Positions 23,249 through 27,519 of a DNA stretch of 36,521 nucleotides are shown here, in pieces. The position numbers and the translations under genes were made by a program. The stretch is from Candidatus Kuenenia stuttgartensis. GTDB taxonomy: Bacteria; Planctomycetota; Planctomycetia; Pirellulales; UBA1268. The DNA lies in contig CAMCQY010000024.1 in assembly GCA_945877135.1 (NCBI GenBank), forward strand, positions 1-36,521, read 5' to 3'. Every line of letters begins with the position of its first letter. Within the stretch, counting starts at the first letter, position 1. A model generated the notes under the pieces. It searched no databases, was not told the DNA's origin, and saw only the letters and a list, made by a program, of their open reading frames with translations.

Positions 23249-23255
23249 CCTCGCC

Positions 23256-23353
23256 CATCCAAGCCCGCAGCGCAAGCAAGGGTATACAGGCAGCGTCAGC
23301 CCACTGGCCGAGCATCGCGGTTTCCCTCGCTCGCGCTTCGGGCTTGTATCGGG
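23256..23353. repeat. Dispersed inverted repeat, copy 1
   Basis: The left arm (about 23256-23282, starting CATCCAAGCCCGCAGCGC) and the right arm (about 23321-23353) are imperfect inverted copies around a 38-nt spacer. The same arms occur at 27426-27519. It lies between convergent genes, as expected for an intergenic palindromic element. Confidence 0.75.
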
Positions 23354-25157: not shown

Positions 25158-25559
25158 TCAAGCAGTCGCGCCGCTCACGGGGGGCAGTCCCCCCGGTGTC
25201 AGTTGAAAAATCTGCACCACGTTGCCGCTTGTAAACGCATGGACGACCGTTCCCGTGACGGGCTCGACTTCCACGGCGGCCTCCCGCACCGTGCGGCCCG
25301 TGATCCGCTTGATCTCGTCCCGGAGCTCCGCCGACGATACGGCGAACAATTGCCGATGGAATTCCTGCACGTTGGCGGCTCCCTCCGCGGTCTCGCTCAT
25401 CAGCCTCTCCGCCGGCGACAGCGCATCGTGGAGCGTGATCACAAGCATGTCATCGCCGACGACGACGGTCACGGCCTTCGGAGGATGGCCTGTTCGTTCC
25501 TGCTGCAAGTCTCTTGCGACCTTGGCGAGTTGTTCCAGCACGGGAGGTGGCGGTGACAT
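25158..25559 (-). CDS. MpsC/DUF2294-like protein (copy A)
   Basis: The 133-aa cytoplasmic protein matches copy C over most of its length: helix, V-x-V-x-x-GDDMLVITL, L-S-x-A-E-R, V-x-E-F-H-x-x-LF and a Gly-Thr-rich C-terminal strand before the tail. Copy A and copy C form a divergent branch, with TGHPPK here where copy B has MGRGPK. The family (PF10057) was named after staphylococcal MpsC, a component linked to the MpsAB membrane potential or bicarbonate system, but its own biochemical role is poorly known. No mpsA or mpsB is in the window. GGAG lies 11 nt before the start. A 7-bp G/C hairpin (25178-25195) falls inside the 3' end. Confidence 0.8.
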   Translation of the reverse strand: MSPPPPVLEQLAKVARDLQQERTGHPPKAVTVVVGDDMLVITLHDALSPAERLMSETAEGAANVQEFHRQLFAVSSAELRDEIKRITGRTVREAAVEVEPVTGTVVHAFTSGNVVQIFQLTPGGLPPVSGATA

Positions 25560-25888
25560 GTCTGACGCGGCTCCGATCAGGGAATGAAGAAACGAATGGT
25601 CGCGATCAGCCGCGACGATCGGTAAGCCGCATGCGTATCACCAAAGCGGCTCAACAGAGGCTTTCTGAGGCATCCGGCGCTGTTGCGGCGATTGATTGTA
25701 TGCAGGCACCGCCGGGCCTACACTCGATTTGACGAGATTCGATTGAGCCGCAGTCGCTACCAGAACTGCAGTGTGGCTTGATCGGAACACCATGGCGGGA
25801 CTTTCCGGCACGTGATCTTCGGACGCTGACAGTTGGTACGGCCCGGGCAGTCGCTGCTCGGGCGACATGTGGACCTGAGAGGATTCCG
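25560..25888 (+). other. 329-bp intergenic region with a candidate promoter
   Basis: No gene is seen. It separates divergent MpsC copies A and B. The only clear signal is the TTGTAT-17-TACACT pair at 25696-25724, followed by a leader of about 160 nt before copy B. Confidence 0.5.
25696..25724 (+). promoter_or_regulatory. Candidate sigma70 promoter before MpsC copy B
   Basis: A -35-like TTGTAT (25696-25701) and a -10-like TACACT (25719-25724) are separated by 17 bp. The same TTGTAT hexamer appears in the promoter of the candidate RNA at 26303. Start of transcription would be near 25731, leaving a leader of about 160 nt. Confidence 0.45.
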
Positions 25889-26269
25889 ATGAAGACCCAG
25901 GGAGAAATCGAGGCTGCCGTCAGCAAAGGGGTGACGATCTTCATGCAGGAATTCATGGGCCGAGGCCCCAAGGATATCTGCACCTATCTGATCAGGGATC
26001 TCTTGGTGGTGCGACTGCAGGGAGTGCTTTCCGCCGCCGAGCAGCATCTCGTCGCTGCACTGCCGGCGGATAAAGGTCGCGACTTGCTCAAGGGAGTCCG
26101 CACGAACCTCGTCGAGATCTCCAGACCGCGACTTGAGAGAATGATCGAGGAGTCAAGCGGCATGCGGTGCGTCAGTTTGCACCACGATGTCAGCACCGTC
26201 ACCGGCGAGGAAGTGTTGATATTCACCCTCGCGCAGGCCCCCGACATGCGCACCGCAAAAAACAAATAA
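25889..26269 (+). CDS. MpsC/DUF2294 protein (copy B, canonical)
   Basis: The 126-aa protein is the clearest family member here: an N-terminal helix, MGRGPKD (23-29), an L-L-V-V-R-L-x-G-x-L-S-x-A-E strand-helix unit, a K-G-x-R helix, and C-terminal HHDVSTVTGEEVLIFTLA. Its length is typical (about 115-130 aa). GAGAGG precedes ATG 25889 by about 6 nt; the frame stays open to 25778 but without support. No membrane segments. It is divergent from copy A, and the RNA unit begins after it. A role in membrane energetics or bicarbonate use is a family-level guess only. Confidence 0.87.
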   Translation: MKTQGEIEAAVSKGVTIFMQEFMGRGPKDICTYLIRDLLVVRLQGVLSAAEQHLVAALPADKGRDLLKGVRTNLVEISRPRLERMIEESSGMRCVSLHHDVSTVTGEEVLIFTLAQAPDMRTAKNK

Positions 26270-26302
26270 CGAGCTGCCGCGAGAGGCGAAAAAAGAATTC
26301 AC

Positions 26303-26330
26303 TTGTATTGGTTATCTGCTGCGGTAAAAT
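26303..26330 (+). promoter_or_regulatory. Candidate sigma70 promoter of the csrA-proximal RNA
   Basis: TTGTAT (26303-26308) and TAAAAT (26325-26330) are separated by 16 bp. Both hexamers are AT-rich in a GC-rich genome. The start of transcription would be near 26337, directly before the structured RNA. Confidence 0.55.
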
Positions 26331-26336
26331 GGGCGT

Positions 26337-26508
26337 GTGGTTTGATCACGAGCAGTCGTGTTAGAGCCTCACGGTGTGTGACACCTCACGGTGAAGCAGC
26401 CGACGGATGACGAGTTGACGAGCAGTCCGGCTGAGGCCGGAAGGTTGGTCACAACGTAAGCCGGCGTGAGAGTTTGCCTTCGGGCAGGCTCTCCCGCCGG
26501 CTTTTTTT
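26337..26508 (+). ncRNA. Candidate structured RNA between two MpsC genes
   Basis: About 170 nt between a promoter and a strong terminator, with no plausible protein. CACGA/TCGTG (26347-26351/26356-26360) forms a hairpin. The 10-nt sequence CCTCACGGTG occurs twice (26367-26376, 26384-26393), and GGTGT/ACACC (26373-26377/26381-26385) competes with CACC/GGTG (26382-26385/26390-26393), so two folds are mutually exclusive. CAGCCGAC pairs with GTCCGGCTG (26397-26404/26425-26433, one bulge), with GGA at the start of its loop (26405-26407). GGCC/GGTT (26435-26438/26443-26446) closes a GGAA tetraloop. It may be a trans-acting sRNA, possibly bound by CsrA, or an attenuator leader of mpsC copy C-csrA. 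I cannot match a known family. Confidence 0.55.
26459..26508 (+). terminator. Strong rho-independent terminator with UUCG loop
   Basis: A near-continuous stem of about 20 bp runs from AGCCGGCG (26459-26466) to CGCCGGCT (26495-26502), through GAGAG/CTCTC, with GCC/GGC closing a TTCG loop at 26479-26482. Only one T-C mismatch and two G-U pairs interrupt it. Seven T follow the stem (26502-26508). The MpsC copy C start lies 43 nt downstream, so read-through could be regulated. Confidence 0.88.
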
Positions 26509-26550
26509 GTTTTTCGGTTTTATGCCATTGAACTCCGGAGCAACGATGCA

Positions 26551-27015
26551 ATGCATACACCCTTTGAGACGAATCTCGCACGGCAACGTACGGCGCGAGC
26601 AGTGGCGAGGGCGGCTGGGAGTTTCGAGCATCTTCTCACCGGCCGCGTGCCGACGAGCGTGATGATCGTGGCCGATGGCGACTGGATGGTGGTGAGCCTG
26701 AGCGAGGCCTTTTCAACGGTCGAACGACGGCTGGCCGCGAATGGGCAGGAGGGGCTGACGAGGGTGAGGGACTTTCACCAGCACCTCTTCGATGGCTCCC
26801 TCGACTCGCTCCGCCGTCACGTCGAAAAGCAGACGGGCGTCACGCTACGAGGCGCAGTCGCCCATGTTGACTCGGTGACGGGAAGTGTGATGAAGACCTT
26901 CACGACCAGCGCGGCCGTGGAACTGTTTGAACTGGGGCAGGCGGTGCGGCCACTTGGCATTCCGATCGACACCCACCTGCATGCCGACGCGACAAGCAGC
27001 AGCGACGCTGCTTGA
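26551..27015 (+). CDS. MpsC/DUF2294-like protein (copy C)
   Basis: The 154-aa protein is longer than copies A and B because of a C-terminal tail (from about 132). It has TGRVPTSV, a GDWMVVSLSEA strand-helix unit, VRDFHQHLF, and VDSVTGSVMKTFTTS where copy B has DVSTVTGEEVLIFTL. Copy A shares the FH-x-x-LF motif. GGAG lies 10 nt before ATG 26551. It follows the RNA terminator by 42 bp and precedes csrA by 47 bp on the same strand, so the two are probably co-transcribed. Function unknown beyond family membership. Confidence 0.78.
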   Translation: MHTPFETNLARQRTARAVARAAGSFEHLLTGRVPTSVMIVADGDWMVVSLSEAFSTVERRLAANGQEGLTRVRDFHQHLFDGSLDSLRRHVEKQTGVTLRGAVAHVDSVTGSVMKTFTTSAAVELFELGQAVRPLGIPIDTHLHADATSSSDAA

Positions 27016-27062
27016 CGCTGATCTTTTCCTGGATGGATCCGCAACCATGAAGAAGGTGACCC

Positions 27063-27329
27063 ATGTTGGTATTGACCAGAAAGAACCGCGAAAGTGTTGT
27101 GATCGGGAGGCCTGATGATCAGGAAGTGGTGATGGTGATCACGATCCTTTCGGTCGAGGGGGGCAGAGTGCGTCTCGGATTCGAAGCCGATAGCACGATG
27201 CCGATCCATCGCCGCGAGGTGTGGGACCGAATCAACGGCGAACACGCAACTGCCCGCGGAGGCTTTGCGAACGATCGAGAACCGCCGGGTCGTGGAACCA
27301 TGAGCAGAGCCGTCTCCGTCGTGCACTGA
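27063..27329 (+). CDS. csrA: CsrA family post-transcriptional regulator
   Basis: The 88-aa protein starts MLVLTRKNRESVVIG and continues VVMVITILSVEGGRVRLGFEA, then IHRREVWDRI; His49-Arg50 matches the RNA-binding His43-Arg44 of E. coli CsrA. CsrA dimers bind GGA in RNA loops and block or stabilise mRNAs. About 20 residues beyond the usual 61-70 form a polar tail, and there is a short insertion near residues 16-21. AAGGTG lies 4 nt before ATG 27063. GGATGGATCC at 27031-27040, just upstream of the ribosome binding site, holds two GGA triplets and could serve autoregulation. It follows mpsC copy C by 47 bp. Confidence 0.93.
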   Translation: MLVLTRKNRESVVIGRPDDQEVVMVITILSVEGGRVRLGFEADSTMPIHRREVWDRINGEHATARGGFANDREPPGRGTMSRAVSVVH

Positions 27330-27425: not shown

Positions 27426-27519
27426 CCCATCCAAGCCCGCAGCGCAAGCGAGGGAATCCGCCAACCATCCCAGCAAGGTCATCCGCATTCCCTTGCTTGC
27501 GCTGCGGGCTTGGATGGGG
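27426..27519. repeat. Dispersed inverted repeat, copy 2
   Basis: Left arm about 27426-27457 and right arm about 27485-27519 are inverted copies (CCCATCCAAGCCCGCAGCGC against its complement) separated by about 27 nt. The arms nearly match those at 23256-23353. It sits between the convergent csrA and aldo-keto reductase genes. Confidence 0.85.

Follow-up and report, generated by a model that had tools for sequence, protein, structure and literature searches.

An apparently undescribed leader RNA family, likely a transcription attenuator, ahead of MpsC, csrA and stress-type genes in planctomycetes

Terminator-type riboswitches, T-box leaders and RAT/BglG leaders are attenuating leaders in which a structured RNA ends in a terminator directly before the gene, an alternative stem uses the 5′ arm of this terminator, and one leader serves many unrelated genes. 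The RNA described here, located between two MpsC genes of a planctomycete, shares these traits with them, but it has no Rfam match and the core of the RNA (UCGGANGAC...GUAAGCCG) differs. It also differs from RAT/BglG and ANTAR systems in the proteins available to bind it. CAT_RBD proteins, the RAT binders of the BglG-LicT type, had no match in the source genome and 59 relatives (60 genomes), and ANTAR proteins were absent from the source genome and its family, being present in 7 of the 59 relatives; both were discarded as candidate binders. To our knowledge, few regulatory RNAs are known in planctomycetes.

The genes around the RNA recall two further systems. As in the MpsABC/DabAB bicarbonate system, three of them (A, B and C) match PF10057, and a second cluster of the same genome adjoins dabA (mpsB); however, the island itself is without dabAB, and its types A and C are divergent and stand in an operon with csrA, an arrangement not described in the literature searched. 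In Staphylococcus aureus, deletion of mpsC gave no growth phenotype and mpsC was dispensable for mpsAB complementation (PMC6689103), so that MpsC may have a regulatory role. The order of C and csrA can be compared with the FliW-CsrA system. There too, csrA shares a conserved operon with the gene of a small protein, but the partner at the present locus is MpsC and not FliW according to Pfam. Finally, the RNA is structured, adjoins csrA and carries a conserved GGA like the CsrB/RsmY sponge RNAs, whereas it has too few GGA motifs, occupies a leader position and precedes many genes.

The MpsC-csrA island and its dabA-linked paralogue

The window, i.e. the whole 36,521-nt stretch of DNA analysed, contains the following genes of the island.

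25158-25559, minus strand: MpsC paralogue A (PF10057, 76.2 bits), with a degenerate N-terminal motif and FHRQLF; dN/dS 0.17
25889-26269, plus strand: MpsC paralogue B (PF10057, 107.4 bits), canonical GRGPK type; dN/dS 0.14
26551-27015, plus strand: MpsC paralogue C (PF10057, 36.7 bits), first gene behind the leader; GGAG at 26537-26540
27063-27329, plus strand: csrA-like gene (CsrA, PF02599, 60.6 bits), conserved partner of C

In the Pfam profile search all three paralogues exceeded the curated cut-off of PF10057 (23 bits) and the csrA-like gene exceeded that of PF02599 (27 bits), in agreement with the first-pass annotation, which had assigned three small genes to this family and had placed csrA directly after C. 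The csrA-like gene stayed below the NCBIfam csrA equivalog cut-offs (TIGR00202 and NF002469, 50.4 vs 70.1 and 53.9 vs 73) and, judged by these profile scores, is a divergent CsrA. The description of the genes as divergently arranged applied to A only, since B, the RNA, C and csrA all lie on the plus strand. Pairwise dN/dS values of the island genes against their orthologues ranged from 0 to 0.30, i.e. purifying selection, indicating that the genes are real. AF2 models of paralogues B and C (pLDDT 93.4 and 83) both showed an alpha/beta fold. Comparison of MpsC with the PDB by sequence and by fold yielded no clear relative (best Z 7-7.6), and the fold therefore gave no functional lead.

A repeat, CTTGCGCTGCGGGCTTGGATGG, was observed in three exact copies in the window (expected 0) at 23255-23276, 27427-27448 and 27496-27517. 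Two of the copies form an inverted pair after csrA, and similar repeats were seen near the loci of related genomes; the repeat resembles a REP-type element.

The A-B-C-csrA order had been noted in this single stretch, and a neighbour search extended it beyond one genome: the order B-RNA-C-csrA was kept in two related genomes, in one of which A was also in place. The order is thus not unique to the source genome, and the copies are not unrelated to PF10057. The A-B-C trio was rare and RNA-MpsC-csrA common, MpsC followed by csrA being found behind 28 RNA copies in 24 genomes, including families distant from that of the window. Orthologous C-csrA pairs were present in many genera, and the position of csrA after C or A, downstream of the RNA, was conserved as well; MpsC adjoining csrA is a conserved operon theme. 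A profile search of genome contigs with a narrow set of A and C proteins found 15 loci, almost all of them from records with planctomycete MAG titles.

The statement that neither mpsA nor mpsB is present was correct beside the island, but failed when the whole genome was considered. Contig C235 carries a further, paralogous cluster, in which an MpsC gene (D) is oriented divergently to RNA-C-csrA-MpsC (E) and a gene for a response-regulator/SpoIIE phosphatase comes after E. D directly adjoins DabA (MpsB, PF10070, 788 bits) in related genomes, and the cluster lies beside dabA in the genus of the source genome and in other genera. Two contigs of the source genome start within the same D gene and then run into dabA. 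On these contigs (C187 and C131) the D gene was followed by two different dabA copies, 77% identical; the source genome has four DabA genes in total. About fifteen genomes of the family carried the C-csrA-E cassette, and paralogues A, B, C and D, E kept distinct types across genera. In type E the Pfam match is split by a variable mid-domain insert, some 20-30 residues long (L039 1677-2117 and L043 5590-6303).

Structure and distribution of the leader RNA

The window RNA (26330-26512) folded at -91.7 kcal/mol (z = -5.8), and 0 of 200 shuffles were as stable. Copies of the RNA were collected by their conserved core and aligned (alignment A1), and a model (R1) was built from this alignment. The elements in the window are listed below; those of the secondary structure are predicted.

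26303-26330, plus strand: promoter-like site TTGTAT-16-TAAAAT ahead of the RNA
26392-26506, plus strand: conserved core of the leader RNA (model R1, comprising hairpin P1-P3 and terminator), 113.6 bits, full length
26401-26406, plus strand: 5′ strand (CGACGG) of P0, the putative anti-terminator stem; its core CGG hardly varies across the family
26410-26457, plus strand: hairpin P1-P3 (P1 26410-26412/26455-26457; apical stem 26426-26431/26436-26441)
26458-26508, plus strand: intrinsic terminator (stem 26458-26503, U tract 26502-26508)
26461-26466, plus strand: 3′ strand of P0 in the predicted folds, CCGGCG, also within the terminator 5′ arm

Strict sigma-70 consensus and terminator scans missed both the promoter and the terminator of the window, which reflects the limits of those scans. 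In the family, 60 of 137 copies had promoter-like sites upstream, whereas shuffled sequences gave 11.7; most of the sites lay 60-80 nt ahead of the core. The end of the window RNA is separated from the start codon of C by 44 nt and the ribosome site lies 29 nt past the U tract, a distance too short for a further promoter. Promoter-like site, RNA and terminator were all seen where a unit between B and C had been reported, but the RNA is best regarded as the leader of C-csrA and not as a unit of its own, and the window RNA very probably controls these two genes.

Matches to R1 were present in 79 of the 298 genomes of the order (E <= 1e-6) and in 13 genomes of a phylum-wide sample of 292, with none in the other 279. 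Up to 10 copies occurred per genome, and 138 copies were mapped. Among 143 distinct sequences, in an alignment that was fitted to R1 and so leans towards the structure, 94.7% of cells were paired and 28 of 32 pairs had changed on both sides. The covariation score was 0.493, compared with 0.200+/-0.005 after shuffling and no more than 0.10 after sliding, and covariation was strong in every helix. Folded with RNAalifold, the MAFFT alignment A1 showed double changes in 20 of 32 pairs. Although the terminator arm GUAAGCCG was the most conserved part of the RNA, all 14 pairs outside the terminator varied on both sides, indicating that more than a terminator is conserved. Rfam release 15 gave no match at the gathering score, either for the window or for six loci with many copies, and at a relaxed threshold gave only a chance-level match (E 4). 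Literature searches on DUF2294, planctomycete leader RNAs or csrA found nothing relevant, a large 2017 RNA-motif survey being outside their scope. The RNA between the MpsC genes thus apparently belongs to an undescribed family of structured leader RNAs across planctomycetes. At one locus (L121:5690-5922, minus strand) a single gene was preceded by two tandem copies, an arrangement known from tandem riboswitches.

When the family alignment was folded without the 3′ arm of the terminator, the invariant UCGG paired with CCGA/CCGG of the terminator 5′ arm. The core CGG/CCG pairs were kept in nearly all 138 copies, and GG of UCGGA in 135. In single-sequence folds before the 3′ arm, P0 had a mean probability of 0.91, compared with 0.075 after shuffling of the 5′ segment, which is an easy control because it destroys the CGG motif. 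In the window, P0 formed as 26401-26406/26461-26466 with one A.G mismatch, while in the full-length fold the terminator won and P1-P3 were retained. In the predicted folds, P0 and the terminator are thus two mutually exclusive states. The pairs of P0 beyond the four core pairs showed no covariation, and an extension of the stem past these four was ruled out for this reason. That P0 shows no covariation follows from its hardly varying; the stem is supported by conservation and exclusivity rather than by covariation.

Genes behind the RNA

By profile, the first gene downstream of the 138 copies was MpsC in 42 and CsrA in 7 cases (49 copies, 38 genomes). All 57 MpsC or CsrA genes within 500 nt downstream lay on the same strand as the RNA and none on the opposite one. 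As expected of a cis-acting leader, the RNA was on the same strand as the gene and directly upstream of it, and ended in a terminator that is part of the model. Many copies ended 15-60 nt ahead of the start codon, leaving no room for a second promoter, and some lay 100-400 nt away. RNA and MpsC showed strong co-occurrence: counted by genome, they occurred together in 65 genomes, the RNA without MpsC in 14, MpsC without the RNA in 15 and neither in 205, as raw counts that ignore phylogeny.

Behind 85 of the 138 copies the downstream gene was not MpsC, CsrA or a response regulator by local profiles, and for weak or distant RNA copies the call of this gene is uncertain. Domains among 87 downstream proteins included BON (10), Response_reg (8), HisKA (5) and CsbD (3), and further downstream genes encoded PAS proteins or kinases, PEP-CTERM proteins, YflT, catalase-type proteins and a transglycosylase-associated protein. 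The established roles of BON, CsbD, YflT and similar families have a general-stress flavour. Since one leader precedes many genes of stress type, it may mark a regulon. In the stress islands L173 and L174 of one genome (G210), adjacent BON genes, response regulators and MpsC each had their own copy of the leader RNA. At four loci, L109 (G000:C77:15452-15566), L110, L111 and L112, a copy preceded a very large secreted-type protein starting MNVFDTLFPKRT, in the first 500 residues of which Pfam found no domain; loci of this type with an RNA copy were found in the source genome and its relatives.

Proposed attenuation and alternative readings

The RNA is probably the 5′ leader of the C-csrA operon and acts as a transcription attenuator, one that would serve a stress regulon with the MpsC-csrA operon among its members. 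Polymerase would start at the leader's own promoter, and the leader would first fold as one extended hairpin, consisting of P0, a 3x3 purine loop and P1-P3, with UCGG paired to the CCGA/CCGG that would later be part of the terminator. If this hairpin were left unheld, the terminator 3′ arm would displace P0 and transcription would stop some 40 nt short of C; polymerase would read through if P0/P1 were stabilised by a protein or a small molecule. By such anti-terminator/terminator switching, the leader very probably decides the transcription of MpsC, CsrA and general-stress genes. The MpsC-csrA operon would be the commonest member of the regulon, located in some genera beside the DabA bicarbonate transporter.

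CsrA is an attractive candidate regulator because UCGGA contains a GGA that is left unpaired in the terminated form. In a special form of the attenuator, CsrA bound to UCGGA would block P0 and thereby favour termination, resulting in csrA autoregulation and control of the stress genes. The near-invariance of GG, the identity of UCGGA with the 5′ strand of P0 and the position of csrA among the commonest downstream genes fit such repression, but CsrA sites lie mostly in hairpin loops and the source genome has six CsrA genes, most of them located elsewhere, so that this form has a minor chance of being right. The same GGA, a CsrA-type core, could also belong to a stand-alone small RNA acting in trans, which would bind the neighbouring CsrA or pair with mRNAs and whose position would reflect conserved synteny only. 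Such an RNA would have its own promoter-like site and strong terminator, as observed, and csrA is often within the operon. It is nevertheless unlikely: the MpsC/CsrA genes show a complete strand bias (57 to 0), the RNA also precedes genes unrelated to them (BON, CsbD, kinases), the gap to the gene often leaves no space for another promoter, a genome may hold up to 10 copies, and the window RNA contains no more than two GGA, of which one is within a stem.

The first-pass annotation had centred on the proteins, suggesting that the three MpsC copies form a hetero-oligomer or an antagonistic set that is controlled by CsrA and would be tied to bicarbonate or membrane-potential systems. The distinct types held by A, B, C and D, E across genera and the position of the second cluster beside dabA agree with this reading, which is quite unlikely given the rarity of the A-B-C trio beside the common RNA-MpsC-csrA order and the dispensability of mpsC, for growth and for mpsAB complementation, in S. 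aureus (PMC6689103). That the conserved element is a mere terminator or repeat without a regulatory role is very improbable: its terminator arm is the most conserved part, but P1-P3 covary independently of the terminator, which already contradicts this reading, its position and orientation are fixed, and 279 genomes of the phylum-wide sample of 292 lack it.

The principal finding is this family of leader RNAs, together with a likely attenuator mechanism. A more far-reaching version, somewhat short of an even chance, is that the RNA represents a new class of riboswitches or protein-responsive attenuators defining a planctomycete general-stress regulon, with MpsC-CsrA as its core feedback member, and that it senses a new small-molecule signal or is bound by MpsC or CsrA as the RNA-binding regulator. 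The leader RNA is short, well defined and amenable to in vitro work, and the conserved MpsC-csrA operon is a testable partner pair. Stress regulation in planctomycetes would become directly accessible through one leader family located ahead of MpsC, CsrA, OsmY/BON, CsbD, YflT and signalling genes, and the MpsC family, which is poorly understood, would gain a first functional context.
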